Shown here one piece after another: positions 1 to 22,645 of a stretch of DNA of 64,000 nucleotides. A program made the translations under genes and the position numbers. The stretch is taken from the NCBI RefSeq assembly GCF_017744135.1, contig NZ_JAGHQU010000002.1:186001-250000 (forward strand), written 5' to 3'. Under the pieces are notes generated by a model. That model ran no database searches, had not been told where the DNA came from, and saw only the letters and a list, made by a program, of their open reading frames with translations. Each line of letters begins with the position of its first letter. Position 1 is the first letter of the stretch. The stretch comes from Endozoicomonas sp. G2_2. Its GTDB lineage: Bacteria > Pseudomonadota > Gammaproteobacteria > Nevskiales > Salinisphaeraceae.

Positions 1-3000
1 GGCACGGTGTTCTCCAGTGGCTTGGGAGCGTTCGTTCTCAAATGCTATGACGATGCAATCGCCGATGGCGATGACATTCTTGCGGTAATCCGTGGCAGCG
101 CCATCAACAACGACGGCGCATCCAAGATGAGTTTCACCGCGCCCAGCCCGGCGGGGCAGGCGGCCGTGATCCACGCCGCGCAAAAAGCCGCGGGGGTGAC
201 GCCCGACGAGGTCGGCTATATCGAAGCGCACGGCACTGGGACGCCGCTCGGGGATCCGATCGAGGTCGAAGGTTTGGCGATGGCGTGGCGCGAGGGCGGT
301 GCCACGGGCGCGCCGGTATGGCTGGGTTCGGTCAAACCCAACATCGGCCATCTCGACTCGGCGGCTGGCGCAGCGGGTCTGGTCAAGGTGGTGCATGCGG
401 TACGCGAAGGGCAGCTGCCCGCAACCCTGCATTACAGGCGTCCCAATCCGCGCATCGATTTTTCAGCGACGCCGTTCACGATCGTCGGCGCGCTCACGCC
501 GTGGCCGGCCCAGCCTGATCGTCCGCGTATTGCCGGCGTGTCCTCATTCGGCGTAGGCGGCACCAACGCGCATATTATTGTGTCCGAGCCGCCGCCCCGG
601 CCTGTGAGCAGCGTACCCCCTCGGGCGCCGCAGCTGCTTATCTTGTCCGCGAAGACGCCGACCGCACTTGCGGCGCGTTGCACGACGCTGGCCGAGTGGC
701 TGAACGCGCACCCGGACGCAGTGCTAGCTGACGTAGCGTGGACGCTGGCAGTCGGGCGCGCACAGATGCGTTATCGCATCAGTTTGGTAGCGGCGACGCC
801 GGCCGAGGCTGCCGAAGCCTTGGCTCGTGCCGCACGCCGAGCTGCGACGCGGCCCGCGACCGAATCCGACGCACCGCCGATACTTTTTGTAATGCCAGGC
901 CAGGGTGCCCAGCATCCGGGGATGGGGCGCGCGCTCTATGACGTGCCCGGCGTCTTCCGGGATACAGTGGATCGTCTCGCCGGATACCTAGCGGAACCGC
1001 TTGGGCTCGACCTGCGGGAGCTGATTTTTCCGGCACCTGCCGCGCAGGCCGTAGCAGCGGACCGGCTGGCCGATACCGCCATCACCCAGCCTGCAGTCCT
1101 CGTGATTGAACTGGCGCTGGCCTATCAATGGCGCGCATGGGGGATCGAGGCACAGACGCTGATCGGGCATAGTCTTGGCGAGTTTGCCGCGGCCGTGCTC
1201 GCGGGCGTATTTACCGAGGCCGACGCATGTCGGCTGATTGTGACCCGCGCACGCCTCATGGCGGCACAGCCCAGCGGTGCGATGCTGGCGATACACGCCG
1301 CGCCCACACAGGTTCAAGCGCATCTGGATGACAGCGTAGAGATCAGTGCGATCAACGCGCCGGAATTATGTGTGGTTTCCGGCGATCACACGGCGATCGA
1401 TGCGCTCGACGATCGTTTGCTGACGGCAGGTCTCCGAACCACCCGGCTTGCCACGTCGCACGCCTTTCATAGCCGCGCCATGGCGCCTGCGATGACCGCG
1501 CTGGAAGAGGCCGTGGCGGCGGTGTCTCGCGCGCCGGCGCAACGCCCGATCATATCCACGCTCACTGGCGCCGCGTTGACAGCCGACGACATGAGCGCGC
1601 CTGACTACTGGTCGCGCCAGATGCGCGAGGCCGTGCGTTTCGCGCCGGCCATCGAGGCCGCGCACGAAAGCCTTCGCCCGGTCTTTCTCGAATGCGGGCC
1701 CGGTGGGCAACTCACGGCTGCCATCAGCCAGCAGCACGCCGCCGATTCGCCGCCGGTCGCCATCGCCAGCCAACCAGGCGCGCGCGATGACACGCCGGCC
1801 GACGTGGCGTTACTTAGCGCACTGGGCGCGCTCTGGCAGGTGGGCGTAATGCCCGACTGGCGCGGGGTGTTCGGCTGCGAGCAGGCGCCGCGCCTGCGCT
1901 TGCATCTGCCGACCTATCCCTTTGAACGCCAGCGCTACTGGATCGACCCGCCGAATCGCGTGTCGCCCGATGTCGCGTCTGCCATGGAATCGGCTATGTC
2001 CGCCAGCCCGCCTCCCGAGACCGCCATGCCTGTACCCGATCGTCTGCCGGAACTGCGCGAGCAGCTGAGAGTGCTGTTCGAGGATCTATCGGGTATCGAT
2101 ATATCGGGGGACGCGGCATCGCGAACATTCGCCGCACTCGGCATGGACTCGATGTTCCTGACCCAAGTCGCCGCCGAAATTTCGCGCACATTTGGCGTAC
2201 GCGTGAGATTTCGCGACCTGCTAGAACGTGTCGACACGCTGGGCGCGTTGGCGGCACATCTGGACAACGAAATGCCGGCGGCTGCGCCAGTAGCGCCGCC
2301 GACGCAGGAGCGACCCGAGCAAGCACAACCGCCGACGATGGCACAGTCTGCGGCCGCATCGCAGGCCGACATGCCCGCGAACACATCACCGTCGCTGTCG
2401 TCGGCCGCGCCGGCCAGCAGTCAGACCCATCAACTTATTGAGCAACAGCTCGCTGTGATGCAGCAGCAACTCGCACTGCTCGGGGCGGGGTCTTTGCCGG
2501 CAGCGCCCACGCCGCTCCCGTCACCGGCGGCAAGCTATGCCGCGCTGCAAGCCCCAGCACCCGCGGTCGTCGGACCGACAGGGCCCGCGGTGCAGGCACG
2601 CCTGCATGACCGGCAACAGGGCGGGCGGACAACCGCCGCCAACGGCCGCTTCGGGCCATACACCGCTGTCGCAACGGGCGCCGCTGGGGCGTTGACTGCG
2701 ACCCAACGAGACTTCATCGACACATTGACCCTCCGCCTGAACGAACGGACACCGTCCTCGCGCGCGCTCGCCGAGAGCGGTCGCCGGCACTTGGCGGATC
2801 CGCGGCATATCGTGGGTTTTCATCGTGATTGGAAAGGCCTGGCCTACCAGATCGCGATGCGTGCCAGCGACGGCGCGCACGTCACCGATATCGACGGCAA
2901 TGACTATGTCGACCTGACGATGAGCCTCGGTGTGGCGTTTCTCGGACATGGCCATCCGGCCGTTCGCAAAGCAGTGCATGCGCAGCTCGACCGCGGCATG

Positions 3001-6000
3001 GAACTGGGGCCACAGGCTCCCGCGGCCGCGCGCGTGGCCGAACGGCTATGTCGTTTGACCGGACACGAACGCGCTACTTTTACAACCACCGGCTCCGAAG
3101 CGGTCATGGCAGCACTACGGTGTGCCCGTACCGTCACCGGCCGTCACAAAGTGGTGTACTTCACGGGTGATTATCACGGGACGTTCGACGGCGTGCTCGG
3201 CCGCGCGCACGTGGCCGACGACACGCTTAGCACGCGCCCGGTGGCGCCCGGGATCACGTCGGCGTCGGTCGACGACGTGATGGTGCTCGACTACGACGCG
3301 CCCGATTCACTCGCGATCCTGCAGGAACAGGCCGATCAGATTGCTGCGGTACTGGTGGAGCCGGTACAAAGTCGCCACCCGAACCGACAGTCGGCGGCCT
3401 TCGTCAAGGAATTGCGGCGCATCACGGAGCAGGCCGGTGCGGCACTCATCCTCGATGAGATGATCACAGGCTTTCGCTGTGCGCCGGGCGGACTCAATGC
3501 CCTCTGGGGGGTGCGCGCGGATATGTGCACCTACGGCAAGATCCTCGGCGGCGGCCTGCCGATCGGTGCGATTGCCGGCGGCGCCCGCTGGCTGGATGCG
3601 ATCGACGGCGGCAGTTGGGCCTTTGATGACGACTCCATGCCCGAAGCGACGATGACTTTTTTCGCCGGCACGCATGTACGCCATCCACTTGCCATGTCCG
3701 CCGCGGAGGTCGTGCTCGAATGGATCGAGACGGACGCGGGTGCGGCACAACGCGCGCTAGATACTGCGACGGGCGCGTTCGCCGCACGTGTCAACACGGC
3801 CATGGAAGCGCGCGGGGTGCCGCTTCGAATCCTGCATTTCTCCTCCTGGTTTCGGTTTGATGTGCCTGCCGATCAGCCACTTGCGGCACTGCTGTTTCCT
3901 TGGCTGGTCGCGCATGGCGTCTACGTGCGCGATGGCGCGCAGAACTGTTTCTTCTCGATTGCACATACCGCGCAGGACATCGCGATCGTCGAAAACGCGA
4001 TATTAGCCGGCGTGAACGCACTCGTGACGGCGGGCGCACTGCCCGGTACGATCCAAGCCACAGCAACGCCTACTGCACTGCCGTTCGGGTCAGGTTCTGC
4101 GCGCCTGGAGGTCGGAGAATCCATACCGCTGATCGAGGCGCAACGCGAAATTTGGCTGGCGCTACAGGTGGATCCGGCGGTCGCACCCGCCTACAACGAT
4201 GTCTCGCGACTTACGCTGGACGGGCCGCTGGATCACGATGCGTTCTCCGAGGCAGTCCACGCGGCAGCGGATCGCTACGAAGCGCTGTCGTTGCGCTTCG
4301 CGGCGGACGGCGAATCTCAGTATCGGGCCGACGCGCGTGTCGTGCAGCTCGACTGGATCGATCAACGAGAGCACGCGCAGCCGCAGGCAGCGGCCAACGC
4401 GGCTATCGAGGCCATGAGCAATCGCGTGCCGGACATCACGGATGCCGATACAGCGCTGCTCGGCGTCACCGTGCACCGCGTCGCGGCAGACCGTCATGTT
4501 ATCGGCGTGATCTCGCATCATCTGGTGTGCGACGGCTGGTCGTCGATGCTGTTCTTCCGTGACCTGGGCACGCTGTACGGCGCATACGTGGAAAGTCAGA
4601 GTGCGAACCTGCCCGAGCCGGCGGCTTTCTCGCAGCATGTCGCACGGCTGTTGGCGCGCGATGTGGCACCTGATCTGGCCTGGTGGCGGGCCCTCTATGC
4701 CACCGCACCGCCGGCACTGACCCTGCCGACACGGGCCGCGCGCCCAGCGTACCGACTGGCGGCGGGGCACACCGCAAGACATGCGCTTGCGGACGAACTG
4801 GCTGCGCGGATTGCCTCCCTTGCAGTTGAGTGTTCTACGACGCGGTATGCGCTTACATTCACCGCGTTTGTCGCACTCATAATGCGGCTGTCCGGGCAGA
4901 ACGATATTGTCGTGGCCATGCCGGTCGCCGGTCAGGTGCTCGAAGGCGAAACCGAGTTGTTTGGTCATTGTGTACAGACTCTGCCGCTGCGATTGACGGC
5001 CCTCGAAGACGCGCGGTTCGTCGATCTGCTTGCGACCGTGCGGCGCGTGATCAGCGCAGCCAGCGATCATGCCGGGGCGACTTACGGCCAGATCGTGCGC
5101 GAAGTCGCAGCCAAGCGCGATCCATCGCGTCTGCCGTTGGCCGAAATCGTATTCAACTGCGCGCCGGATGATGGCCCGCCCGTTCTGCCCGGCCTGGAAA
5201 GCGCGGTCGATAATCCGGTGAAGACCGCGACCCAGTTTGATCTGCATTTCGACCTACAAATCGGCGCCGACGGGTGGGTTATCGACTGCGATTACGCAAC
5301 GGCTCTCTTCGATGCCGACATGATCGCGGATTGGCTGAGCGACTACGCGGCCGTGCTGTCGGCTGTCGCAGATGATGTCGAGATTCCAGTCGCGACATTG
5401 CCGGTGCGCACGGGCGTGCGCGACGATCCGGGCGCGCGCTTCAATTCGGCACCGTCAATTATTGATCCGGACGTGGATTTAGTGGCCGGATTACGCAAGG
5501 TCGCGTCAGAAAGGCACGACGCCGTTGCAGTGGCGCATGAGACGGGCGACTGGAATTACGCCAGGTTGGACAGCGCATCGGACTGCATTGCCGCAGCACT
5601 CGACGAGCGCGGAGTATCCCCCGGCGATCGGGTCGGGCTGTGCGCGCGCCGTACACCGGCGTTGATCGCCGGGATGATCGGGATCCTGAAAGCCGGCGCG
5701 GCTTATGTGCCGATGGATCCTGCGTATCCGATCGAGCGACTGGCTTTCATATCCGAGGACAGCGGTATTAAGTTGATTCTTGTCGACGACACGGAGATAG
5801 CGCTAAGTGATGTTGCCACGCTGACGCTCGATACCGCGATGGCGGTAACTGCTCAGTTACCGAAGCCTGCCGTCGATATCGAGCGCGAGGCCTATGTGAT
5901 TTACACCTCGGGCTCGACCGGTCGGCCCAAGGGCGTGTCGGTGCGCCATCGCAATGTGCTGGCGCTTTTGGCCTGGTCGGAAAGCGCGCTGGCAGACGAC

Positions 6001-7350
6001 GAGATTGCCCGCATGCTCGCGGCTGCCTCCATCTGTTTCGATTTCTCGGTGTTCGAGTTGTTTGTGCCGTTGTACCGCGGCGCGACCGTTGTGCTGGTAG
6101 AGGATCTACTGGCCCTGGTTGCCCCGTTGCCGACGCCTCCGACCATGATCAGCGGAGTGCCTTCGGTGCTCTCGACCTTGCTGCGTCATGTGGAACTGCC
6201 CGCATCGGTTCGTAGCGTCATGGCAGGCGGAGAGCCGGTACGCCGCGAACTGGTGGCACGGCTTGCAGACCAACCGGGTGTGACCCGCGTGATGGAATGT
6301 TATGGCCCGACGGAGGCAACGGTGTTCACGACCGTGAGCGAACGCCACGTCGACGGGCCCGACACGATCGGCGCCCCGATTTCCGGATGGCGGGTTCAGA
6401 TCGTGGACGAGCAAGACCGGCCCGTCCCCGTGGGTGAGTTGGGCGAGCTGCTGGTCGGCGGAGCCGGTGTCGCGGCGGGCTATGTCGGCCGCCCTGAATT
6501 GACCGCCGAGCGCTTTGTACCGGATCCCGAAGGTGGCGATGGCGCGACGCGTTATCGAACCGGAGATATGGCCCGGTGGCGCAGCGATGGGCAGATCGAG
6601 TTTGTCGGCCGTGCCGATACGCAGGTCAAGCTCCGCGGTTTTCGTATTGAACTCGGCGAAGTCGAGGCCGCACTCACCGAGCATCCGGCGGTGGAAGAGG
6701 CCGTGGTGTCGGTGCGGGCAGCGAGTGAGGGCGATGATCAGCTCGTGGCTTGGTGGCAGCCTGCGAGCGGTCATGCCGGGATTGAATCGGCCGTGCTTCG
6801 GCGTTATCTGCGCGAACGCCTGCCGCTGCACATGGTGGCCCAGCAGTTCGTCGTCCAGAACGAATGGCCACGCTTGTCGAATGGCAAGATCGATCGCAAG
6901 ACGCTTGTCGATCCGTTCGAAAACGGCGCGGCCGAAGCCGTTGTGGATGCGCCGGGCACACAGGCATTGGCTGACGTCACCGCGCTCTGGGCGGACGCGC
7001 TGGGTCACGCGGTATCGCCGGCGCCGGAGGACACGTTCATCGATATCGGCGGGCATTCTCTACTTGCTGTTCGCGCGGTGGCTGCGGCGCGTGAACGTTA
7101 TGGTGTTGAGGTGCCGGTACGCGCCATGATGCTCGATAGTCTCGGGCAACTGGCCATGCGACTGGCGACTGCCTTCCAGGACGCCGCCGAGCCCGCCGTC
7201 GTATCGTCCGAGACCGAACACAATTCTCGCCTTGTCGACGCCCAGGTATCAGCAGAAACGACCGGCGACGATCAGGCGAGTACGCCGGCTGGGCGCAGGG
7301 ATGCGCGCGGCGGCCTAATCGCGCGCATGGGTTTTTCGCGGCGCTCCTGA
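1..7350 (+). CDS. Hybrid PKS-NRPS megasynthase (KS-AT-ACP-AMT-C-A-PCP), 5' end outside window
   Basis: The frame is open from base 1, so the N-terminal part is missing. Counting codons from base 1, the order is: C-terminal half of a ketosynthase (about 1-198, with EAHGTGT and NIGHLD); acyltransferase (about 292-610, GHSLGE with Ser391, and HAFH, the malonyl-type motif); acyl carrier (LGMDS, Ser717); PLP class III aminotransferase (about 900-1330, DEMITGFR, Lys1180 in YGKILGGG); condensation (HHLVCDG, His1507, Asp1511); adenylation (TSGSTGRPKG near 1969, YGPTEAT); peptidyl carrier (GGHSL, Ser2353). No thioesterase, ketoreductase or dehydratase is present in what is visible. The layout resembles mycosubtilin/iturin synthetase A but with a cis AT. 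By that analogy it would extend an acyl chain with malonate, turn the beta-keto group into a beta-amine, and couple the product to one amino acid. My reading of the adenylation pocket is D-F-F-S-M-G-C-V-F(-K), which I cannot assign to an amino acid. Confidence 0.95.
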   Translation, partial: GTVFSSGLGAFVLKCYDDAIADGDDILAVIRGSAINNDGASKMSFTAPSPAGQAAVIHAAQKAAGVTPDEVGYIEAHGTGTPLGDPIEVEGLAMAWREGGATGAPVWLGSVKPNIGHLDSAAGAAGLVKVVHAVREGQLPATLHYRRPNPRIDFSATPFTIVGALTPWPAQPDRPRIAGVSSFGVGGTNAHIIVSEPPPRPVSSVPPRAPQLLILSAKTPTALAARCTTLAEWLNAHPDAVLADVAWTLAVGRAQMRYRISLVAATPAEAAEALARAARRAATRPATESDAPPILFVMPGQGAQHPGMGRALYDVPGVFRDTVDRLAGYLAEPLGLDLRELIFPAPAAQAVAADRLADTAITQPAVLVIELALAYQWRAWGIEAQTLIGHSLGEFAAAVLAGVFTEADACRLIVTRARLMAAQPSGAMLAIHAAPTQVQAHLDDSVEISAINAPELCVVSGDHTAIDALDDRLLTAGLRTTRLATSHAFHSRAMAPAMTALEEAVAAVSRAPAQRPIISTLTGAALTADDMSAPDYWSRQMREAVRFAPAIEAAHESLRPVFLECGPGGQLTAAISQQHAADSPPVAIASQPGARDDTPADVALLSALGALWQVGVMPDWRGVFGCEQAPRLRLHLPTYPFERQRYWIDPPNRVSPDVASAMESAMSASPPPETAMPVPDRLPELREQLRVLFEDLSGIDISGDAASRTFAALGMDSMFLTQVAAEISRTFGVRVRFRDLLERVDTLGALAAHLDNEMPAAAPVAPPTQERPEQAQPPTMAQSAAASQADMPANTSPSLSSAAPASSQTHQLIEQQLAVMQQQLALLGAGSLPAAPTPLPSPAASYAALQAPAPAVVGPTGPAVQARLHDRQQGGRTTAANGRFGPYTAVATGAAGALTATQRDFIDTLTLRLNERTPSSRALAESGRRHLADPRHIVGFHRDWKGLAYQIAMRASDGAHVTDIDGNDYVDLTMSLGVAFLGHGHPAVRKAVHAQLDRGMELGPQAPAAARVAERLCRLTGHERATFTTTGSEAVMAALRCARTVTGRHKVVYFTGDYHGTFDGVLGRAHVADDTLSTRPVAPGITSASVDDVMVLDYDAPDSLAILQEQADQIAAVLVEPVQSRHPNRQSAAFVKELRRITEQAGAALILDEMITGFRCAPGGLNALWGVRADMCTYGKILGGGLPIGAIAGGARWLDAIDGGSWAFDDDSMPEATMTFFAGTHVRHPLAMSAAEVVLEWIETDAGAAQRALDTATGAFAARVNTAMEARGVPLRILHFSSWFRFDVPADQPLAALLFPWLVAHGVYVRDGAQNCFFSIAHTAQDIAIVENAILAGVNALVTAGALPGTIQATATPTALPFGSGSARLEVGESIPLIEAQREIWLALQVDPAVAPAYNDVSRLTLDGPLDHDAFSEAVHAAADRYEALSLRFAADGESQYRADARVVQLDWIDQREHAQPQAAANAAIEAMSNRVPDITDADTALLGVTVHRVAADRHVIGVISHHLVCDGWSSMLFFRDLGTLYGAYVESQSANLPEPAAFSQHVARLLARDVAPDLAWWRALYATAPPALTLPTRAARPAYRLAAGHTARHALADELAARIASLAVECSTTRYALTFTAFVALIMRLSGQNDIVVAMPVAGQVLEGETELFGHCVQTLPLRLTALEDARFVDLLATVRRVISAASDHAGATYGQIVREVAAKRDPSRLPLAEIVFNCAPDDGPPVLPGLESAVDNPVKTATQFDLHFDLQIGADGWVIDCDYATALFDADMIADWLSDYAAVLSAVADDVEIPVATLPVRTGVRDDPGARFNSAPSIIDPDVDLVAGLRKVASERHDAVAVAHETGDWNYARLDSASDCIAAALDERGVSPGDRVGLCARRTPALIAGMIGILKAGAAYVPMDPAYPIERLAFISEDSGIKLILVDDTEIALSDVATLTLDTAMAVTAQLPKPAVDIEREAYVIYTSGSTGRPKGVSVRHRNVLALLAWSESALADDEIARMLAAASICFDFSVFELFVPLYRGATVVLVEDLLALVAPLPTPPTMISGVPSVLSTLLRHVELPASVRSVMAGGEPVRRELVARLADQPGVTRVMECYGPTEATVFTTVSERHVDGPDTIGAPISGWRVQIVDEQDRPVPVGELGELLVGGAGVAAGYVGRPELTAERFVPDPEGGDGATRYRTGDMARWRSDGQIEFVGRADTQVKLRGFRIELGEVEAALTEHPAVEEAVVSVRAASEGDDQLVAWWQPASGHAGIESAVLRRYLRERLPLHMVAQQFVVQNEWPRLSNGKIDRKTLVDPFENGAAEAVVDAPGTQALADVTALWADALGHAVSPAPEDTFIDIGGHSLLAVRAVAAARERYGVEVPVRAMMLDSLGQLAMRLATAFQDAAEPAVVSSETEHNSRLVDAQVSAETTGDDQASTPAGRRDARGGLIARMGFSRRS

Positions 7351-7357
7351 CGTGACG

Positions 7358-8143
7358 ATGGTTCCTTTTTTCTTTGGGGAACGCGCGTCGCTCTACGGGT
7401 CGTATCATCGACCGCCCGAGGGCGCCTCGGGCCCGGAAACCGCATTGGTGATTTGCCAGGGCATCGGCCACGAATACATGCGTGCCTATCGTGCTTGCTG
7501 GCAGATCGCAGAAGCCGCGGCGGCACGCAATGCGCACGTGCTGCGCTTCGATTACCGCGGTACGGGCGACAGCCATGGCCGCCAGCACGATGCCAGCTGG
7601 TCCGCCTGGATCGATAGCACGGTTGCAGCCATGGCGTGGTTGCGCGAGACGACCGCCCTGACGCATATCCGAGTTCTAGGTATGCGCGCGGGCGCCCTGA
7701 TCGCGGCAGCCGCCGCCGCAAGGGATTCGGAGCGTCAGCGCGTGCTGTTCTGGGATCCGGTGGTCAACGGCGAGGCTTATCTGGGCGACATCGCCGACAT
7801 GCACGAAAGTCAGACGCGAAATATGAATCGCTATCGCCCGCGTAGACATCATCATGCAGAACGGGGCGCCGACGAATATCTCGGTTTCCATTGGCCCGAG
7901 GCGGTGGTCGCCGGAATTCGAGACGCAGACCTGATGGCCTACGCCGCGTCTCGTATCGATGATTGGCACTTGGTATTGAGCGACGGCGAGCAGGCGCCGG
8001 CACTGGCGGAGTCGATCACCGCGCGTGGCGGGCATGTCCTCGATTTGCCAGAAACAATGGACTGGGCCGATATACGCGCCCAGTACCGGCGCGTTGCGTT
8101 GCCGCGGTCTACCCACGATGTGCTCAATCTGTTGCTGGCCTGA
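7358..8143 (+). CDS. Alpha/beta hydrolase-like protein, nucleophile elbow without serine
   Basis: About 261 residues with an alpha/beta-hydrolase N-terminal half (ICQGIGHEYMRAYRA, then RFDYRGTGDSHG). It resembles the hydrolase 2 family found beside exosortase/exopolysaccharide loci. At the nucleophile elbow the sequence is GMRAG (near residues 108-112), so the expected serine is an arginine. This may be a non-catalytic or acyl-binding member rather than an esterase. It starts 7 bases after the synthetase stop (GTG at 7352 is an alternative start) and ends 1 base before the next hydrolase, so all three genes are probably co-transcribed. A role in handling or releasing the synthetase product is inference from position and from the absence of a thioesterase. 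Confidence 0.75.
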   Translation: MVPFFFGERASLYGSYHRPPEGASGPETALVICQGIGHEYMRAYRACWQIAEAAAARNAHVLRFDYRGTGDSHGRQHDASWSAWIDSTVAAMAWLRETTALTHIRVLGMRAGALIAAAAAARDSERQRVLFWDPVVNGEAYLGDIADMHESQTRNMNRYRPRRHHHAERGADEYLGFHWPEAVVAGIRDADLMAYAASRIDDWHLVLSDGEQAPALAESITARGGHVLDLPETMDWADIRAQYRRVALPRSTHDVLNLLLA

Positions 8144-8144
8144 C

Positions 8145-9607: not shown

Positions 9608-9651
9608 ATGCGTATTGTCGCCGGTCTACGTCTCGAAAGGCAGCGGGTTTC

Positions 9652-13658: not shown

Positions 13659-14599
13659 GGCGAGTGCCGCACGCCGACAAGATGACGCCGGGCTGCGCTG
13701 AATGCTGAACGCGGTAATGCCGCAAGTTGGCGAAGCTGCCAGCGGCGCAGATTCGCACGAAATTCGGGATCTGGATAGCGCTTGGCGCCCTGAGCTGCTG
13801 CGCGGAAATAACCGGCGATGATCAGAAGACCACCGACCACATAAGGCCAGTCGCGCATCCGATAAAGACCGGAGGCCACCGCATAAGCCGGGTGATAACC
13901 CATGAAATGAATGCCGCGCCCCCACCGCATCCGCCCGTGCACGATGCTGACCTGAGATGACCCCATTAACCGATGGTGATGGATGCGTGCTTCGAGATTG
14001 GCGATATTATAGGTGCGCCAACCCGTCATGCGCGCCCGGTGAATATCGATACCGTCCCACTGGAGAGTCTGCTCGAACCCGCCGATCGCTTCGAAGGCGG
14101 CCCGCCGGTAAAACTTGAACGGCCCGCACACCATGTCGGCGCTCTTGCGTTCCTCGACGTCCCCACCCGGCTCGGGCCTAAAGACACGTCCCGACACCGC
14201 AGCGAGCCGGTGTTCACGGGTGAACTCGGCCAGCATCAGTTCGATATAGCGCGGTCCGTAGGTGATATCCGCATCGAGTTTGATGATGTAGTCCCAATCC
14301 GCGATGGGTGAAGCCGAGAGCCCGAAGTTGAAGGCTTCGATCACGCCAGAGCCGACATGGCGGTGGCCGCGATCGGGCTTGTCCACGACGGTTATGAAGT
14401 CGAGTTCGGCGGCGCGGGTTCGTGCCATGGCAGCAGTGTGGTCGGTCGAACCGTCATTGACGATCACCCAAGCCGTGGGACGAACCGTTTGCGCGGCCAT
14501 GCTGTCTATCGCGGCGTCGATGAAACGAGCTTCGTCGCGAACCGGCGAGATCACCAGAATCGACGGCCGCGCCGCGCCCTGAAATTTGCTATCAGTCAC
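13655..14599 (-). CDS. Family 2 glycosyltransferase
   Basis: 314 residues with a GT-A fold signature: VISPVRDEARFIDAAIDSM, then VNDGSTDHT, and a KLDADITYG motif whose DAD acts as the metal-binding DXD. A C-terminal hydrophobic stretch (about 235-260) may associate with the membrane. It should add one sugar to the lipid-linked repeat unit in the cytoplasm. ATGA overlaps at both ends place it inside a translationally coupled operon. Donor and linkage cannot be read from sequence. Confidence 0.9.
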   Translation of the reverse strand: MTDSKFQGAARPSILVISPVRDEARFIDAAIDSMAAQTVRPTAWVIVNDGSTDHTAAMARTRAAELDFITVVDKPDRGHRHVGSGVIEAFNFGLSASPIADWDYIIKLDADITYGPRYIELMLAEFTREHRLAAVSGRVFRPEPGGDVEERKSADMVCGPFKFYRRAAFEAIGGFEQTLQWDGIDIHRARMTGWRTYNIANLEARIHHHRLMGSSQVSIVHGRMRWGRGIHFMGYHPAYAVASGLYRMRDWPYVVGGLLIIAGYFRAAAQGAKRYPDPEFRANLRRWQLRQLAALPRSAFSAARRHLVGVRHSP

Positions 14600-15810
14600 G
14601 ACAGCACCCGCTCGTAGGCCGCAAGCAGCTTGGGCACCTCGTGGTTCCAGGCGAGCACGTCCTCTATACGACGCTTACCGTATGCGCCCATTGTTTCTCG
14701 CATCTGCCGATCATCGATGAGGGTGAGTATCTGGTCGACGAAATCGCCACGATCCCCCGGACGCGCATACAGGGCAGCATCGCCGGCCGACGCGCGACCT
14801 TCGGTCAGATCGTACTGCACGAGCGCTTTGCCCAACGCCATGTATTCCAGAATCTTGTTCATCGTCGACTGGTCGTTCATGTCGTTTTTCGGATCGGGGC
14901 TAACACAAATATCGGCAGAAGACAGCACGCGCAGCAGCTCGTCACCGTCGAGACGGCCGGGGAAATCCACGTAATTACCAATTTTTAGCGTGTCCGCGAG
15001 CGTGCGGAGCCCCGCCAGCGACGGCCCGAAGCCAACCAGGCAGAATTGAATATCGGTGCGACCACGCTCATGCACGATATTCGCCACCATATGGAGTAGA
15101 TCCTCGAGGCCTTCCTGTTCGCCCATGACACCCACATAGCCAACGAGATACTCGCGGCCTCGGCGTAGCGATGGGTCAGTAAGCAGGGGTCTGATTCGCT
15201 CGAGATTCGGGCCGCTGCGCACCACGAATACATCGTCTTCGGCCATCCCGCCGCGAGCACAGGCGATGCGCTTGAACGAATCGTTTGTGGCAATCGACAC
15301 TTTCGCCAATGCGAAGGTCGTGCGCTCCAATATCCGCATCAACCGATACATCACACCGCGACGGCCGAATTTGGCCACAAACAATTCCGGGCAGAGATCG
15401 TGGTGATCGAACAGGAATCGCACACCGAACGGTCGCGCCAGCGCGGCGACAAGAAAGATCGTATCGGGGGGATTGCAGGCATGAATGACCTGGATGCGCC
15501 GCTTGCGGGCGATACGCACCGTCAACACTAGTTGCCAGAATAGTGCGGTGGCATATTCCAGCGGATAGGCCCAGGCGCCTTTAGCTTCCACAGGCAGTGG
15601 GTGCCTGTGAATGGCGATACCTTCCAGTTGGACATAGCGCGCGTCGTAGCCCTCGGCCTGCGGGCAGATGATCGATACCGCATAGCCGGCATCCCGCAGC
15701 GCACAGGCCTGTTGCCAGACTCGGCGATCGAAGGGCAGGGGCAGATTCTCGACAATGATCAGCACATGCGCACTTGCCGACCCGTTATCGAGCGGCCGTC
15801 GATCGTTCAT
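14596..15810 (-). CDS. Family 4 glycosyltransferase (GT-B)
   Basis: 404 residues. The N-terminal domain starts VLIIVENLPLPFDRRVWQ and contains the FDHHDLCPELF segment; the C-terminal domain has VGYVGVMGEQEGLEDLL, DICVSPDPKNDMN and KILEYMALGKALVQYD, the donor-binding part of GT4 enzymes. The start at ATG 15810 was chosen because family similarity begins a few residues later and it lies 16 bases after the upstream stop; a longer reading to 15933 would overlap the upstream gene deeply. It probably adds a sugar to the exopolysaccharide repeat unit. Confidence 0.9.
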   Translation of the reverse strand: MNDRRPLDNGSASAHVLIIVENLPLPFDRRVWQQACALRDAGYAVSIICPQAEGYDARYVQLEGIAIHRHPLPVEAKGAWAYPLEYATALFWQLVLTVRIARKRRIQVIHACNPPDTIFLVAALARPFGVRFLFDHHDLCPELFVAKFGRRGVMYRLMRILERTTFALAKVSIATNDSFKRIACARGGMAEDDVFVVRSGPNLERIRPLLTDPSLRRGREYLVGYVGVMGEQEGLEDLLHMVANIVHERGRTDIQFCLVGFGPSLAGLRTLADTLKIGNYVDFPGRLDGDELLRVLSSADICVSPDPKNDMNDQSTMNKILEYMALGKALVQYDLTEGRASAGDAALYARPGDRGDFVDQILTLIDDRQMRETMGAYGKRRIEDVLAWNHEVPKLLAAYERVLS

Positions 15811-15826: not shown

Positions 15827-16975
15827 TCACTGATCGGCACTCGGTTCGCGCCGTTGGCCGGCCTGTGTTGCTGCGCTGCAATAAACTGCTGCGGTGTACT
15901 CTGCCAGGCGTGGCCAGCCACGTTCGCCGTCACCCTCGACTGCGACGTTGCGCCGAACTGTTTCTAGCGCATCGGGGCGGCTCTTGAGCTCTGTTAAACG
16001 CGCGGCCAACGTATCGACGTCCACTGGGTTCAACAGAAATCCCGTGCGCTCGTTGTCGATCACTTCCGACAGACCGCCGATACCGCTCGCCAGCACCGCG
16101 CTTTGATAAGTCAGCGCCAGCATTAGCACACCGGATTGATCGATTCGGCGATAGGGCAGGACCACCAGATCGGCGGCTGCGAAATAGCGGGCAGTCGCTT
16201 CGGCATCGACGCGACGCAGGTCGGCCATTACATCGCTACGGCCTTTGATATCCCGGGCAGCGTCGCCAAACATGTCTTCACCGGCAACAATAAGCTGGAT
16301 ATTGGGATCGGCAAGACGGTCGAGTGCCGCGACCAGCATATCCAGACCCTTGTACGGCCGTAGGCGTCCGAACAGCAGGAGCACGAAAGTGCTGTCATCG
16401 ATACCGAGCGAGGCGCGTGCGGCAGCGCGTGTCGGGGCCGGACGGGCGCTGAGCGAGAGTGGGCCATGGGCGATGACGTGAACACGCGTGGCTGATACGT
16501 CCAATTGCCTGATTAATGTGTCAGCGGTATGACGGGTGTGGGCGATGACGGCATCGACACGACGATAGATCTGGCGGAACAGCGCTTTATCAGTGCTGCG
16601 ATTCTCATGCGGCAGGCTGTTATGCGCCGTCCAGATCAGGCTGGCGCCGCGCAGCCGGGCGACCAGCAGCAGCGGCCAGTCAAGTATTGGTCGGTGCAGC
16701 GCCTGGACATGAAAGACATCCGGACGTTCCCGCCATATACACGCGGCGCTACGGGCCAGGGCGACCAAATGCCCCGCCAGCTGTTGCCAGCGACTGCGTT
16801 CGCTATGGGCTGCGGGATAACAGCGGGCCAAGAGCGCGGCGCCTACCGCGTCGGCGTACGCAAAATCCGCACGCACAATGACGCACAGACGCGTGATGTT
16901 CTCGCGCGCGGCCAATGCCGCGGCAAGTTCCGTCACATATTCGGCCGGCCACGGCGCATGCATGAGTACCCGCAT
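15827..16975 (-). CDS. Family 4 glycosyltransferase (GT-B)
   Basis: 382 residues. The N-terminal Rossmann domain contains PDVFHVQALHRPI and WTAHNSLPHE; the C-terminal donor domain has LLLFGRLRPYKGLDMLV and LVVLPYRRIDQSGVLMLAL, with the usual glutamate position replaced by a divergent sequence. It would act in the cytoplasm on the lipid-linked oligosaccharide. It sits 7 bases downstream of the secreted BNR-type gene and 16 bases upstream of the second GT4. Sugar specificity is unknown. Confidence 0.88.
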   Translation of the reverse strand: MRVLMHAPWPAEYVTELAAALAARENITRLCVIVRADFAYADAVGAALLARCYPAAHSERSRWQQLAGHLVALARSAACIWRERPDVFHVQALHRPILDWPLLLVARLRGASLIWTAHNSLPHENRSTDKALFRQIYRRVDAVIAHTRHTADTLIRQLDVSATRVHVIAHGPLSLSARPAPTRAAARASLGIDDSTFVLLLFGRLRPYKGLDMLVAALDRLADPNIQLIVAGEDMFGDAARDIKGRSDVMADLRRVDAEATARYFAAADLVVLPYRRIDQSGVLMLALTYQSAVLASGIGGLSEVIDNERTGFLLNPVDVDTLAARLTELKSRPDALETVRRNVAVEGDGERGWPRLAEYTAAVYCSAATQAGQRREPSADQ

Positions 16976-16982
16976 GAAAGGC

Positions 16983-18425
16983 CTATCCTTTGCTCAGACG
17001 AATGATTGTGACGCGATCGTCGCGACAGCGACCGTCGTCCAGAACATTGGCGTGCACATAGAACAGGGCACCGCTTTCGGACGGTGCGGGCATTGCCCGG
17101 GTATGACACAGTGCGGTGCCATCACTCGCGTTGCCTGTGTAGACCGTTTGCCAGTCGCCGGTCGGTATGCCGTGTGTGTCGACTGACCGGCGCAGCACCC
17201 TGAGGCCGGAGGCAAACGCCCACTCGTGGCCGCTGTCATCGTAATGTTGTTCAAAAGCCTGTTCCGGCACTGGAACCGGATCGGACCAGTGCTTGTCCGC
17301 GAGCCGCGTTCTATAGCGCGGCCCGTGCACCGACTGCAGCGCGACCACGGGGTGGCCGCCGGCGCTCACGCTGATTCGGGCCGGGCTATACAGACCGTCC
17401 GGGGCCAGCCGCGCGATACGCGCCGGCGCGACGCGACTCGCCGACGCGAGGTCGATCGGCAGCTCGTAGCGTTCACCGGTGGCATCATAGGCCGTATCGC
17501 TGCCGGGCGGCAGATAGGCGTAGCTGGCGAAATTCTGATCCACACCCGAGTCGCCGCGCCGCCACAGCCAAGCCACGTGCATGCCGTTGGATGCGTCGAA
17601 TGCTAGGCGCATCTGGTAGACCCACCAGCCGGGCTGGCTGATGAACGGTCGGCTGGTATATTCAGTCTGCCCCGGCGGCAGCTGGACATCGTTCCGACCG
17701 ACGGTAACGTCACCGCCGATCGCGCTCCAACGGCGCGTCTGCTCGTCATAGCGTGCGAGGCCGCCCGAGAAAAGTCGCTCCGACCACGTGCGGGCTGGGC
17801 GCACGGCATAGCGGTAGGTCACGTAGAGGCGTCCGTCGCGATCGTTGAAGAACGCGGGGTATGTGACCTGTGTACCCGGGATCGACGCGGTACCAGGCGC
17901 GGGGAATTCGACGCGCCGATTCTGGCTCCCCCAACGCGCCTTGGCGGTTACACGCTGGCCTCGAAAAACGAATGTATCAATCGTCTCGGGCTGCGACGAG
18001 ACCGAATATTGCCAGGGCAGATTATGCATATCATAGGCAACGTGCACGAAGCCGCTCCGATCGAGTCCGATGGAGGCGGCGGTGTGATACGGGTCGTTAG
18101 CCGTATCCACGTCGAGCCGATAAGTCTGCCACGCCCAGCTACCGTTATCGCTGCGTACGCCTTTTCGTATGACGGTGTAGAGGCCGAAACTATGAATCGG
18201 CACCGGCCGAGCGCCCGGTTCGACGTTGACCGTATAAACTGCCTGCGCGGACACAGCCAAGGGTGTCGCAAACACACTGGCGTTGGCTTGAGCGACGGCG
18301 ATCGGCGGTAGCACGACCTCTGCCGTGACCTCTGCCATAGCTGAACCAGCAGCCATGCATAGCGCTGCGGCCGGGGCGGCGCGTGCTGCCAGGCTACGGC
18401 TGAATAAGGCGTTGCGCATACGCAT
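16983..18425 (-). CDS. Secreted BNR-repeat protein, possible polysaccharide lyase-like propeller
   Basis: 480 residues with a signal peptide (basic MRMRNALFSRS, then an alanine-rich core ending AMA). The mature part contains HTAASIGLDRSGFVHVAYD and MHNLPWQYSVS, followed by repeated blade-like segments such as DRDGRLYVTYRY and DASNGMHVAWLW. This fits the BNR_4 type beta-propellers, a group that includes PL24/PL25-like lyases. Its place between the ligase and the glycosyltransferases suggests trimming, binding or turnover of the exported polymer in the periplasm or outside. Catalytic residues cannot be assigned, so enzyme activity is a guess. Its ATG shares one base with the upstream stop. Confidence 0.72.
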   Translation of the reverse strand: MRMRNALFSRSLAARAAPAAALCMAAGSAMAEVTAEVVLPPIAVAQANASVFATPLAVSAQAVYTVNVEPGARPVPIHSFGLYTVIRKGVRSDNGSWAWQTYRLDVDTANDPYHTAASIGLDRSGFVHVAYDMHNLPWQYSVSSQPETIDTFVFRGQRVTAKARWGSQNRRVEFPAPGTASIPGTQVTYPAFFNDRDGRLYVTYRYAVRPARTWSERLFSGGLARYDEQTRRWSAIGGDVTVGRNDVQLPPGQTEYTSRPFISQPGWWVYQMRLAFDASNGMHVAWLWRRGDSGVDQNFASYAYLPPGSDTAYDATGERYELPIDLASASRVAPARIARLAPDGLYSPARISVSAGGHPVVALQSVHGPRYRTRLADKHWSDPVPVPEQAFEQHYDDSGHEWAFASGLRVLRRSVDTHGIPTGDWQTVYTGNASDGTALCHTRAMPAPSESGALFYVHANVLDDGRCRDDRVTIIRLSKG

Positions 18426-19714
18426 CAACTTTCCTGATTCGGCGAATCGATCGCACGCAGACGTGCGAGCGCCAGACTGGCGTGAACAGACAGCAGAAAC
18501 ATGAAATGGATCGGGCGGAACAGGCTGGATTCCGCCAGGTTGGCAAGGCTGAGAAAAGCAATGAAGCCGAGCACCCAGGCCGCCTCGGCCCGCCATCCCG
18601 GCAGCAGCAGCACACCGCGGCGGATCGTATTGGCGAGAAATCCGATCCCCAGCAGCAGGCCCGGCACGCCCAGCTCGTTAGCCAAGTCTAGATAGCCGTT
18701 GTGGGCCTGCCAGAGGACGCCGTAAAGGTTCTGGGTGACCCAGGGCGCGGGGCCGCCGATACCGAGCCAGAACGCCTGGAAGCCGGTGCCGAACAACGGG
18801 TGCTTGAGGACTTCCGCATACACTAGACGCCAGATCTCGAGACGCCCGGTGAAGGTCACGTCGCGGCCGACGGCGTTTGCGACCGGGGCGACGATTTCGC
18901 GCCAGCCTGGCACGCCGTGGGTAATGAGCACGACGAAAAATATGCTGAGCACAACTGCGCCGAGCGCGAGCGCGCTGCCGAACAGAAGGCCCCGCAACGA
19001 TATAACCGGACGCAACATCAACCACATCGGCGGCAGCACCGCCATCACGCAAAGCAGCGCCGTGGCGTTGCGCGCCATGATGAGGGTGACCGCGGCCACC
19101 GCAGTCCAGCCGATGGCCGGCAGCGGGCGTACTTCGCCGATCGCCAGTCCGTGCATCCACAGCACCATTACCAGGCTCGCAGCCATGCCAAGGTGGTTCT
19201 TGCTGCGGGTGATGCCGGTCCAGGCATTCTCGTAGCCCGCGACATGTCCGATGTTGGGCAGGGCGAAAACCACGATGATTGAAAACACGATCAGTGTCGT
19301 TAGGCAGGCGCGTGTGTGGCGGCGCAGCCGATCCGGTCGCCAGGCGGCAACCTGGAATGACAGGGCGATCAGCCCTGTGCCGACAAGCAGCACGAGCTTG
19401 CGAACAGTCACCATCGGATAATCCGACCAGCCGACACTGAGCACGGCCCAGCCGAGGAACAGCCACAGAAATGGGTCGATCTGGCGGGCAATGCGCAGGG
19501 CTACGCCGCGGCGTAGCCAGATCACCAATGCACAGAACAAAAAAGGTGTCATCCATTGCAGACGCCGGATCACGGAGCCGCCCTGCGCATCATTGGACGC
19601 CGCATTGCTGGCCCAATCGAGACCATCGGGAAGCAGCGCGAACGCCAGGGTGACCCAGAACAGCACAACGAGCAGCCGGTGGAAACGCGTATCGTGTTCG
19701 ACCGGAAGAGGCAC
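18425..19714 (-). CDS. O-antigen ligase/polymerase family membrane protein (Wzy/WaaL-like)
   Basis: 429 residues, about 11-12 hydrophobic helices with a large external loop (around 270-360) containing RLEIWRLVYAEVLKHPLFGTG and HNGYLDLANELG, which match the conserved Arg and His sites of the O-antigen ligase superfamily. It starts with GTG 5 bases after the CpsD-like stop. In this operon it most likely acts as the Wzy polymerase, since Wza-, Wzz- and Wzx-type partners are all present. A ligase role cannot be excluded from sequence alone. Confidence 0.88.
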   Translation of the reverse strand: MPLPVEHDTRFHRLLVVLFWVTLAFALLPDGLDWASNAASNDAQGGSVIRRLQWMTPFLFCALVIWLRRGVALRIARQIDPFLWLFLGWAVLSVGWSDYPMVTVRKLVLLVGTGLIALSFQVAAWRPDRLRRHTRACLTTLIVFSIIVVFALPNIGHVAGYENAWTGITRSKNHLGMAASLVMVLWMHGLAIGEVRPLPAIGWTAVAAVTLIMARNATALLCVMAVLPPMWLMLRPVISLRGLLFGSALALGAVVLSIFFVVLITHGVPGWREIVAPVANAVGRDVTFTGRLEIWRLVYAEVLKHPLFGTGFQAFWLGIGGPAPWVTQNLYGVLWQAHNGYLDLANELGVPGLLLGIGFLANTIRRGVLLLPGWRAEAAWVLGFIAFLSLANLAESSLFRPIHFMFLLSVHASLALARLRAIDSPNQES

Positions 19715-19719
19715 TGGTC

Positions 19720-20337
19720 TTATTCCTCGATGAGCAAGGTGCCCAATACGCGAGTGCCGCTCTCGCGTAATCGATCGGTCAGGGTGCGTAGCCTGTGAAC
19801 AGGGGTGATACCTCGCTGCACGATGAGCAACGCGCCGTCACTGAGGTTGCCGGCAGAAATCGCGTCCAGATCGCTCGGATGGGCCGACGTATCGATTAAG
19901 ATGTATTCATATTTGCGGCCTAGTTCCGTCATGGCCTGGGCAAACTGTGCCGGCGCTTCGATCAGTGTGTCGGCCAGCGACGGCTGGGTCTCAGTGCCGG
20001 TTACGACGGTCAATCTTGGCACAGTGGTTGCTGTGCTAGCAGTGTCGATTGAAGAGAGTCCGAAAAGCAGATGTTGCCGCGGTCTCTCGCGTGCCGCGTC
20101 GATCAATGCCGTACGTTGGCCGGACTGCGCTAGCAGGACGGCGAGGTTTGCCGCCACGAAACTGCGACCTGAGCCGGCCATGCAGCCGACCACCGCCAAA
20201 CGCCGGACAGGCGTATCGTTGAGTTCGATGCGTGCCAGCGCAGCGCGCAATGTATCGGCAGATTGCCCTCGCGGTACATGAAACGCGAATACGTCGCGAT
20301 GTATGTCCGCGTGTGCCGGTCGTCGATCCATGTTCAT
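19720..20337 (-). CDS. CpsD/Wzc-kinase-like ATPase with altered Walker A and no tyrosine tail
   Basis: 205 residues resembling the cytoplasmic ATPase half of bacterial tyrosine kinases that partner Wzz proteins. The P-loop reads GCMAGSGRS (51-59), so the invariant lysine is Arg58; the Walker A' region is LIDAARERP and the Walker B-like strand ILIDTSA. The protein ends LGTLLIEE with no tyrosine cluster. It is therefore unlikely to be a classical autokinase and may be a regulatory ATPase-like partner of the co-polymerase upstream, with which it overlaps by ATGA. Arg in place of Lys usually weakens ATP hydrolysis; that is family knowledge, not measured here. Confidence 0.8.
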   Translation of the reverse strand: MNMDRRPAHADIHRDVFAFHVPRGQSADTLRAALARIELNDTPVRRLAVVGCMAGSGRSFVAANLAVLLAQSGQRTALIDAARERPRQHLLFGLSSIDTASTATTVPRLTVVTGTETQPSLADTLIEAPAQFAQAMTELGRKYEYILIDTSAHPSDLDAISAGNLSDGALLIVQRGITPVHRLRTLTDRLRESGTRVLGTLLIEE

Positions 20338-21749
20338 GCCGTTGCTCCGCGTTTGAGTACGCCGAACACCGGCAATGCCAGCTCGCGCTCGATATCCTCG
20401 GGCGCACGTACGCGCCGGTCGAGCAGTTCCTGGAGCAGGGCGATCATGACGCCAACGATTCCGCCCAGCACGAGGCTCAATAACAACTTGCGCTTGAGGC
20501 CCAGGCCGGCTCTTTTCGTCGGCGGCGTTGCACGCGTGACTACAGACACATTCTGCGGGCTAAGCTCGCTGCCGCCGAGCACTTGGTCGTAGTTCGACAG
20601 CGCCGCTTCGTAGACCTGTAACGCGCTTTCGAGCCGCCGCTGGTAACTGGCCAGCTGACCCCGCTTGCTTTGCTTGTCCATGACGTCTGCCCGGGCCGCA
20701 TCGTAATTGTTCTGTAAGGCGTCGACCTCGCCGCGCGCGGCCTTTGCACTTTGGCGTGCGGCCGCGAGATAGGCATCGATCTCGGCGCTCAGGCGCGCTC
20801 TTACGGTGTCGATCTGCCCATCGATGGCGCGAATACGCGGATGATTGGGGCCTAGTGATTGGGCAATGTCAGCGCGTTGGGCCAAAAATCCGACTAGGCG
20901 ATCCTTCAAGTCCTGGACCACGTTGCTGTCGAGAATGTCCGCCTGAGCGGTGACCGGTTTCCGGTTTGAACGTGCGGCGTTGATCTGATCGACTTCAGAC
21001 TGAGCACTCTGCATCCGGGCCTGCGCGGCATTTAGGCGTGTGCCGAGATCGGTCAGACGGTCAGTATCGACGGTAGTTGCGCCCGCTGCATCAATCACAT
21101 CAAGGCGTTGACGCGCTGCGGTCAATTCCTCCTGCGCCTGGTCAACCTTGCCGCGTAGACCGTCGAGAAAATCCGCGTATTGACCGAGACGCTGGCGCGC
21201 CGGATCGGAGGCCATGTTCGCGCTGGCCTTCATATACTGGTCGATCACTGCGTTGACGATGGCGGCGCTTTGTTTGGCGTTCTCGCCTCGAAAAGAGACC
21301 ACGAGCAATTGACTGATCTCGCCGGCGCGAATCTGAAGACCATCACCCAGCTGAGCCGCCAGCCTCTGCCGAAAGGACCCCTCGCCGTTGTCTTCGGTTT
21401 CGAAATCAGCCAGTGCTTGCGGGTCGTCTGCCAGGCCTAGTTGATCGACCACGCCCAGCATGACGTTCTGGCTAGTTAACAGGTCGATCTGCGTCGCACG
21501 ATAGCTCTCGGCCAATGCCGAGGAACGCGCCTGACCGGTGAGTGGGTCCACTGTTGGGAACTCGATTACAAGCGACGCGCGCGCCTCATAGCTCGTCGAA
21601 AACAGTGATGCCATGATTGCCAGAGCGGTAAACAAGGCCACCGTAATCGCGACAGTGCGCCAATGGGCGCGAACCGCGCGCCAGAGCTGGCCGACGGTCG
21701 GCGTGGCCTGCATGCCGGGGATCAGTGGCCGATCGACTTGGGCGCTCAA
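20334..21749 (-). CDS. Wzz/GumC-type polysaccharide co-polymerase
   Basis: 471 residues: N-terminal membrane helix (about 30-52, TVAITVALFTALAIMASLF), a Wzz domain with IDLLTSQNVM, a long periplasmic coiled coil (about 190-390), and a second helix (LLLSLVLGGIVGVMIALL) before a short cytoplasmic end. Such proteins set chain length and bridge the polymerase to the Wza exporter. The start is a TTG in a TTGA overlap with the upstream gene, backed by a strong AAGGAG ribosome-binding site inside that gene's end. The kinase-like partner is the next, separate gene, as in Gram-positive CapA/CapB pairs. Confidence 0.9.
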   Translation of the reverse strand: MSAQVDRPLIPGMQATPTVGQLWRAVRAHWRTVAITVALFTALAIMASLFSTSYEARASLVIEFPTVDPLTGQARSSALAESYRATQIDLLTSQNVMLGVVDQLGLADDPQALADFETEDNGEGSFRQRLAAQLGDGLQIRAGEISQLLVVSFRGENAKQSAAIVNAVIDQYMKASANMASDPARQRLGQYADFLDGLRGKVDQAQEELTAARQRLDVIDAAGATTVDTDRLTDLGTRLNAAQARMQSAQSEVDQINAARSNRKPVTAQADILDSNVVQDLKDRLVGFLAQRADIAQSLGPNHPRIRAIDGQIDTVRARLSAEIDAYLAAARQSAKAARGEVDALQNNYDAARADVMDKQSKRGQLASYQRRLESALQVYEAALSNYDQVLGGSELSPQNVSVVTRATPPTKRAGLGLKRKLLLSLVLGGIVGVMIALLQELLDRRVRAPEDIERELALPVFGVLKRGATA

Positions 21750-22645
21750 AAGAAACGCTCCTTCACGAAAATCACGTCACCAGCCTGTACGCGCGTGGTA
21801 GGCGACCCATCGAGCGTTTTCACCGTGCCGTCGGGTGCACGACGATGAATGGCAAAACGAGAGTTGGAGCCACGATCGGTGAGGCCGCCGCCGGTGGAAA
21901 TAGCCTGAATGACGGTCATCCCGGGCCGGATCGCGTAGGCGTCAGGGCGCTGAACCTGACCGTAGATGTAGAATAGCGGCGCCTCAGGCACGTAGACCGT
22001 GTCGCCGGCGCGTAAGACGCTGGCAGTGCTGTCGCCAGCGACCAATGCATCGATATCAATACGCTCTCTCATCTCGGCGTCTTTACCGGCGTGAATCAGC
22101 ACGACTGAACGCGCGCCCCGTGCCGTAATGCCGCCCGCCTCGGCCAGCACATCGAGAAGCGTCGTGCGACTGGTTAACGAGAACCGTCCGGGTTGATTCA
22201 CCGCACCGAGGACTGAGACCTGTTGGCTACGGTGTTCCACTAACGTCAGGCTGATTTGAGGATCACGAAAATAACCGCCTTCTCGATATGCTGTCTCGAT
22301 ACGGGTCTGAGCCGCATTGGGTGTCAGATCGCCGATATTGACAATGCCCAGCAGGGGCAGTGATATCTGTCCGGTGTCGGACACAAACCCCTGGATGTTC
22401 ATGTCGGCCTGACCGAACATGCTCATTTGAACAATATCGCCTGCGCCAATGATGACGCCCTCCGAACTTGTCGCGGATGAGTCGGCCGGTTGATCCGACG
22501 GTATCGGCAGGTTTGACGGATTCACGGACGGTGGTGCAGGAGCTATCGATTCGGCCGTTTGGTTCGGGGCCGGTGATCCAGCGCAAGCGGCGAGCAGGAT
22601 AGAGAGTCCCGCGACCGTCAGAACGATCCGATAATCAGTCAGCAC
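21746..22645 (-). CDS. Polysaccharide export lipoprotein (Wza/EpsE-like)
   Basis: 299 residues starting at GTG. A lipoprotein signal ends in LLAAC (Cys21). The polysaccharide-export domain (GVIIGAGDIVQMSMFGQADM, about 64-160) is followed by two SLBB-like segments (VSVLGAVNQPGRF and FYIYGQVQRPDAY). This is the outer-membrane channel for capsule or exopolysaccharide export and the first gene of the ten-gene minus-strand operon. A G-rich Shine-Dalgarno lies 9 bases before the start and a palindrome 34 bases upstream of it. Confidence 0.92.
   Translation of the reverse strand: MLTDYRIVLTVAGLSILLAACAGSPAPNQTAESIAPAPPSVNPSNLPIPSDQPADSSATSSEGVIIGAGDIVQMSMFGQADMNIQGFVSDTGQISLPLLGIVNIGDLTPNAAQTRIETAYREGGYFRDPQISLTLVEHRSQQVSVLGAVNQPGRFSLTSRTTLLDVLAEAGGITARGARSVVLIHAGKDAEMRERIDIDALVAGDSTASVLRAGDTVYVPEAPLFYIYGQVQRPDAYAIRPGMTVIQAISTGGGLTDRGSNSRFAIHRRAPDGTVKTLDGSPTTRVQAGDVIFVKERFF

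Follow-up and report, generated by a model that had tools for sequence, protein, structure and literature searches.

Why should a polyketide synthase-nonribosomal peptide synthetase (PKS-NRPS) assembly line be interlocked with the genes of an exopolysaccharide (EPS) export cluster, as it is in the 64,000-nucleotide stretch of the genome of Endozoicomonas sp. G2_2 (Salinisphaeraceae) analyzed here? We refer to this whole stretch as the window (G000:C22:186001-250000), G000 being the genome of the window and other G numbers the compared genomes. The synthetase gene is followed by two alpha/beta-hydrolase-like genes (hyd2, then hyd1), a leftwards-transcribed phosphopantetheinyl transferase (PPTase) gene, a rightwards-transcribed flippase gene (wzx), and ten leftwards-transcribed EPS genes–coding for EpsE, EpsF, EpsG, Wzy, a BNR_4 protein, two GT4 and one GT2 glycosyltransferases, WcaJ, and EpsL–with tail-to-tail overlaps of 28 bp (hyd1/PPTase) and 26 bp (wzx/epsL). 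A sequence-only reading had named these overlaps and gene classes, and Pfam and NCBIfam matches bear out the synthetase, the two hydrolases, Wzx, and the ten-gene operon; it had also proposed that the synthetase and EPS arms function together, and this coupling we find partly supported. We put about even weight on the locus being one composite pathway, a Wzx/Wzy-type EPS cluster with its own aminoacyl-decorating PKS-NRPS assembly line. More tentatively, it may represent a recurring class of surface polymers in which a dedicated PKS-NRPS would make a (di)amino-acyl chain and a cysteine acyltransferase, either hyd1 working with hyd2 or a Cys-type thioesterase in cis, would hand this chain to the lipid-linked sugar repeat, with Wzx and Wzy exporting a polysaccharide-nonribosomal peptide hybrid.

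The window opens inside the synthetase gene (1–7350, transcribed rightwards), which base 1 cuts 3.9 kb past its start, and holds the C-terminal 2449 of its 3759 residues. The complete gene spans G000:C22:182071-193350 and has the Pfam domain order C-A(Gly-like)-PCP-KS-AT-ACP-AMT-C-A-PCP; the first C-A-PCP and the N-terminus of the KS domain lie upstream of base 1, and the part in the window (7–7350) carries the C-terminal part of the KS followed by AT-ACP-AMT-C-A-PCP and a C-terminal tail (GLIARMGFSRRS). The upstream extension recommended in the sequence-only reading yielded the rest of this same synthetase rather than a second cluster, and a scan limited to eight open reading frames (ORFs) further upstream, at ~C22:173000-180500, found neither a flippase nor an NRPS among them. 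In a genome-wide search at E≤1e-25 the only condensation domains in G000 are the two in this synthetase. No cis-thioesterase (PF00975) was found in the protein by the Pfam scan, and about 60 residues follow the last PCP.

The first A domain has the hand-read code DILQLGMVWK (DILQ[LM]GMVWK in G008 and G012), many related clusters have almost the same code, and from published codes we take it to specify glycine; the second code, DFFSMGCVFK, matches no clear specificity, and by our own reading the AT motifs appear to be of the malonyl type. Among PDB entries the first C domain (C1) is nearest by sequence to that of PvdL, and the best sequence match of the AMT is that of mycosubtilin synthetase MycA (6kfm), at 364 bits versus 170 for the best stand-alone aminomutase. 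The sequence-only reading had suggested a beta-amino-acyl/aminoacyl group; with glycine predicted as the first residue, the assembly line would yield a diamino-acyl chain and not a simple beta-amino acid. The AMT and the KS-AT-ACP-AMT-C-A-PCP middle are common to MycA; MycA starts with an acyl ligase, whereas the present synthetase starts with C-A(Gly-like)-PCP, lacks a cis-thioesterase, and sits in an EPS locus.

The evidence that bears most on the coupling is linkage outside the genus Salinisphaera, which is stronger than the synteny within it. EpsF matches (E≤1e-20) are present in 36 of the 85 sampled genomes of the order, and a PF00668 search in 30 of these (leaving out G010, G384, G400, G401, G448, and G449) turned up 28 C domains (E≤1e-25), spread over 17 genomes. 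Of these domains 17, from 11 genomes, share a contig with an epsF no more than 30 kb away, where about 1.4% would be expected per domain. A naive binomial (60 kb of 4.2 Mb) gives p values of about 8e-25 per domain, 8e-16 per locus (11/20), and 4e-5 per genus (4/8), with locus and genus counts set by hand and rows that are not independent; given this relatedness, the per-domain and per-locus values are far too small. Order-wide, EpsF is found in 16 of the 22 genomes with hyd1 (E≤1e-12) and in 20 of the 63 others (Fisher p 0.001, kinship ignored).

The arrangements themselves are varied. An NRPS adjoins epsE/F/G/wzy in eight genomes (G389, G404, G410, G411, G409, G422, G425, and G431; three genera, one other family), in all of which a C-A-PCP-TE gene stands divergent to epsE, the C domain being partial in G404; the TE assignment is supported by Pfam in G409 and G389, and by a profile built from those two in the other six. 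The surrounding region includes a PPTase in G389, G409, G422, G425, and G431, and in G409, G422, and G431 the epsE-F-G-wzy run is flanked by the C-A-PCP-TE gene and a KS-AT-ACP-AMT-C-A gene. G392 has the synthetase-hyd2-hyd1-PPTase-epsL order of G000 near a contig end, with epsF on another contig. Outside the order, G098 has a C-A-PCP-TE gene next to epsF/G/wzy in the same layout, and G061 has a synthetase and both hydrolases amid Wzy_C and GT4 genes, with a Wzx-like gene ~19 kb further; among the 25 EpsF-bearing genomes from outside the order in the class sample, three have a C domain, which stands beside epsF only in G098. No NRPS is present at other EpsF loci examined, for example those of G388, G416, G418, G436, G437, G398, and G443. 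When 20 of the 24 AMT rows are placed in a KS+AMT tree, the EPS-linked synthetases fall in two separate clades, requiring at least three changes, so that linkage has been gained or lost more than once. The similar pairings in some relatives suggest that the product of the assembly line serves to decorate the polymer chemically.

Within Salinisphaera, sampled with 14 genomes including G000, the two arms are present or absent together. The synthetase occurs in five genomes (G000, G008, G012, G016, and, in fragments, G010), and this wzx and a close epsF occur in the same five; the other nine have no synthetase, no such wzx, and no close epsF, with weak epsF matches (E 7e-11 to 2e-5) in five of them and none in four. 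The unit is syntenic in four species and the gene order is identical in G000, G008, and G012. The G016 cluster keeps all of the genes, at roughly 40–70% identity per gene, with the synthetase split into two proteins, two genes added, and wzx, but not the PPTase gene, inverted, so that it adjoins epsL on the strand of the EPS genes. In a UvrC tree the four testable carriers form one clade (support 80/91), which is a point against coupling: a single gain is possible, and genus-level linkage alone is therefore weak.

Two unrelated clusters could in that case have arrived on one tRNA-Cys/tRNA-Leu island and stayed by hitch-hiking. The cluster fills the interval between tRNA-Cys (G000:C22:181314-181387) on the left and tRNA-Leu(taa) (23847–23933, rightwards) on the right, two genes with little between them in 8 of the 12 uvrC loci of non-carriers, each locus taken to 1.5 kb past uvrC, so the block looks like an insertion there; its G+C content (0.629) equals that found elsewhere in the window (0.632). 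Such an origin would also fit the separation of the arms in G444 and the absence of one arm from G001. However, the G016 unit is whole though it lies at another genomic place, ~90 kb from uvrC, and the linkage is found in other genera, and coincidence, already weakened by these observations, seems to us improbable.

Two further features of these genomes may be noted. The genes added in G016 (L031:6495-8354 and 9480-11450) code for a 620-residue protein with no Pfam or NCBIfam match and for a protein that resembles asparagine synthase and has the XrtA amidotransferase family TIGR03108 as its nearest model (498 bits, cut-off 817). A partial condensation domain on the uvrC contig of G012 (G012:C31:73204-73800) probably belongs to the N-terminus of that genome's synthetase, which a contig break would have divided.

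How, then, could the chain be released? Next to the synthetase are hyd2 (7352–8143) and hyd1 (8145–8978), both transcribed rightwards and related to TIGR03101 and TIGR03100, respectively, at scores below the curated NCBIfam cut-offs (86.8 vs 202.75 bits for hyd2, 88.2 vs 168.45 for hyd1); hyd2 is over its Pfam cut-off and hyd1 under. The nucleophile elbow of hyd1 reads GLCSG, with Cys115 and a His250, and the protein is a putative trans-acting acyl transferase or thioesterase; in hyd2 the elbow is GMRAG, Arg replacing the nucleophile. A structural model of hyd1 (mean pLDDT 55) would place Cys115 between a strand (109–114) and a helix (116–127). The alignment of hyd1 has 23 copies, including those of G061 and G205 from outside the order and without those of G402, G407, and G410; 18 of them have Cys at the elbow (G-x-C-[ST]-G) and five have His, and the catalytic-triad Asp is not conserved across it. 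All five His-type copies (G395, G400, G401, G403, and G404) belong to hyd2-hyd1-PPTase trios (L184, L123, L182, L125, and L183) that have no synthetase in the 20–60 kb examined, G404 having its NRPS beside epsF elsewhere. The Arg of hyd2 is present in 22 of 22 aligned copies, and the cis-TE variant reads GWC in eight of eight cases in the order and in G098.

Further signs tie the hydrolases to the synthetases. In G205, G411, and G415, hyd2 is fused behind the terminal C-A-PCP, and 11 of the 12 terminal synthetase proteins that adjoin unfused hydrolases end in a short hydrophobic/basic C-terminal tail (the miss is G392; G439c, on another contig, is not among the 12). This tail is on none of eight TE-bearing and none of three fused proteins, and on 28 of 2139 background frames, by a pattern composed after the tails had been seen and with the positives included in the background; it is also on a second, non-terminal synthetase protein of G061. 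As judged from these sequences, hyd2 and hyd1 are probably the chain-releasing partners. The tail may serve to dock them or, just as plausibly, to bind a membrane. What seems unusual about the release machinery is its Cys, in hyd1 or the cis-TE, its hyd2-synthetase fusions, and its conserved C-terminal tail.

The PPTase gene (8951–9607, transcribed leftwards) shares its strand with the EPS operon, and the protein matches PF17837 (77.9 bits) and PF01648 (39.1 bits), both over cut-off. The sequence-only reading was right that a PPTase is present and wrong about its strand; the rightwards ORF at 8975–9658, considered as the PPTase, has no family match and was dropped.

The composite pathway could then operate as follows. 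The PPTase would activate the carrier domains, and module 1 would load a residue like glycine, which the N-terminal C domain may acylate. One malonyl unit would be added by KS-AT, and the AMT would convert the beta-ketone to an amine, giving a 3,4-diaminobutanoyl unit if glycine is correct, before module 3 adds one further residue. Because there is no cis-thioesterase, we propose that the hyd2/hyd1 pair removes the chain from the last PCP, with hyd1 supplying the Cys nucleophile and hyd2 helping to dock hyd1, perhaps via the conserved tail. A sugar in the lipid-linked repeat would receive the chain at the cytosolic face; WcaJ and the glycosyltransferases would build this repeat, Wzx flip it, Wzy polymerize it, and EpsE/F/G/L export the polymer. 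If this is correct, thiotemplate assembly lines would hold a standing role in decorating Wzy-type polymers, beyond the making of free metabolites, loci of this kind should count as single pathways in genome mining, and it would become possible to test what hydrolases 1/2 do in the neighborhood of EPS genes. The recurrent layouts provide a defined list of genomes for polymer isolation and a search for glycine and diamino acids.

Several observations weigh against strict coupling. In G444 the 51 kb around the synthetase-hyd2-hyd1-PPTase cassette contain nothing that matches the EPS profiles made from Salinisphaera (five flanking ORFs were Pfam-scanned) and epsF is on another contig, and the G444 synthetase is the sister of the Salinisphaera synthetase in the KS+AMT tree. 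The synthetase-hyd2-hyd1 cassette is likewise away from EPS genes in G440 (51 kb), G438 (20 kb), and G415 (a 9.6-kb contig), and in G205 it is among neighbors in the region examined that by eye are housekeeping-like. Conversely, in G001 the EPS genes and wzx are present but a condensation domain (E≤1e-25) is absent, and EpsF (E≤1e-30) is in none of eight genomes with AMT synthetases from outside the order in the class sample. Cys-bearing hyd1 genes without an adjacent NRPS are found in G413 and on contig C2 of G438, so the match between this Cys and the presence of a synthetase is imperfect. Release by a Cys thioesterase can also give a free or a cyclic product, we identified no acyltransferase dedicated to sugars, and the 30-kb linkage distance was of our choosing. 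Functional coupling, for which the sequence-only reading had proposed checks of co-occurrence and synteny, is supported by the four-species synteny, the all-or-none pattern across the 14 Salinisphaera genomes, the position of wzx in G016, and the links in other genera, and these separated arms speak against it.

The separated cassettes, and the AMT synthetases in genomes without EpsF, are what would be expected under the main rival explanation, in which the synthetase makes a small (lipo)peptide or a diamino acid that stays free, is released by hyd1/hyd2, and is exported by an unlinked pump, with the linkage reflecting co-regulation or a shared niche, such as that of a biofilm metabolite, and no covalent attachment. 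The nearest PDB matches of C1 and the AMT, in PvdL and in the MycA of the lipopeptide mycosubtilin, are likewise from free-product pathways. On the other hand, family scans of the cluster proteins at E≤0.001 recognized no exporter besides wzx and no regulator, the linkage recurs in different gene orders in several genera, and synthetase genes flank the EPS operon on both sides in G409, G422, and G431. We regard a free metabolite as a serious contender, though less likely than the composite pathway.

Could the locus instead be a variant of the XrtA/PEP-CTERM EPS region? That region, in which a ligase, an ACP, and a PLP enzyme stand alone and are accompanied by hydrolases 1 and 2, has in common with the locus a tandem TIGR03100/03101-related hydrolase pair close to EPS genes, and one multidomain synthetase would have replaced its stand-alone enzymes. 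The families nearest to hyd1 and hyd2 speak for this, as do a hyd2-hyd1 frame beside epsE/F/G in G413 and the TIGR03108-like amidotransferase inside the G016 operon. But hyd1, hyd2, and the amidotransferase are all under the curated cut-offs, and a search of G000 for an exosortase (PF09721) gave no match at E≤0.001; membership fails without an exosortase and was dropped, and we consider even a variant of this kind very improbable.

The closest fit among known systems is with Wzx/Wzy-dependent EPS clusters of the EpsE-F-G-L type (TIGR03028/03017/03029/03014), with which the locus shares WcaJ initiation, glycosyltransferases, Wzx, Wzy, an EpsE export protein with EpsF-like and EpsG-like partners, and the EpsL barrel; the hexose-1-phosphate transferase, Wzx, Wzy, and OPX/Wza protein of a Wzx/Wzy-type EPS cluster are all present. 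It differs in adding a PKS-NRPS, a PPTase, and two hydrolase-like genes, in the absence of an exosortase from the genome, and in that EpsE, EpsF, EpsG, and EpsL all score under the cut-offs of the corresponding models. The synthetase, when searched against genome contigs, matches Salinisphaera shabanensis (73%), a Salinisphaera metagenome-assembled genome (MAG; 70%), and a distant Legionella MAG (30%). The S. shabanensis orthologue, F7QBN5, is listed in Table 2 of Milano et al. (2013, PMC3870968) as C-A-CP-KS-AT-CP-PLP1-C-A-CP with the predicted product Gly-Mal-Nrp; it figures there only as an AMT-bearing synthetase, and the word 'polysaccharide' appears zero times in the main text of that paper. 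A literature search covering titles and abstract openings, with subscription journals thinly covered, found no NRPS-PKS described with an EPS cluster. The synthetase is already in print as a domain layout, and its pairing with an EPS locus is without description in the literature searched.

The EPS arm begins with wzx (9652–11130, rightwards; PF13440 120.4 bits, cut-off 23), which has a single match in the genome at E≤0.001, in line with the sequence-only reading that the only flippase is on the PKS side. The leftwards genes are those for the outer-membrane beta-barrel EpsL (11105–12280; TIGR03014 215 bits, cut-off 275), the WcaJ-type undecaprenyl-phosphate glucose phosphotransferase that is the initiating enzyme (12267–13658; TIGR03023 456.8 bits, cut-off 410.75), the GT2 glycosyltransferase (13655–14599), GT4 glycosyltransferases b (14596–15810, start uncertain) and a (15827–16975), the BNR_4 repeat protein (16983–18419, start uncertain), the Wzy-type polymerase (18425–19714; PF04932 43.1 bits, cut-off 31.7), a short EpsG-like P-loop kinase (19720–20337; TIGR03029 82.2 bits, cut-off 313.8), the EpsF-like Wzz/co-polymerase (20334–21749; PF02706 24.2 bits, cut-off 25.5; TIGR03017 239.5, cut-off 422.75), and the Wza/OPX export protein EpsE (21746–22645; PF02563 57.5 bits, cut-off 28), which has SLBB domains. 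The BNR_4 protein, a possible polysaccharide hydrolase or lyase, is kept in all four syntenic species and may be a polymer-cleaving enzyme. In G444 the slot of the Salinisphaera wzx, beside the PPTase gene, is occupied by a gene for a strongly hydrophobic protein of 459 residues (L119:11812-13188); its candidacy as a flippase is unsupported, with no Pfam, NCBIfam, or PDB match and an hhalign probability of 0.4 percent. Elsewhere in the window, ARAGORN calls a tRNA-Leu(cag) at 52350–52426 that is under the Rfam gathering score.

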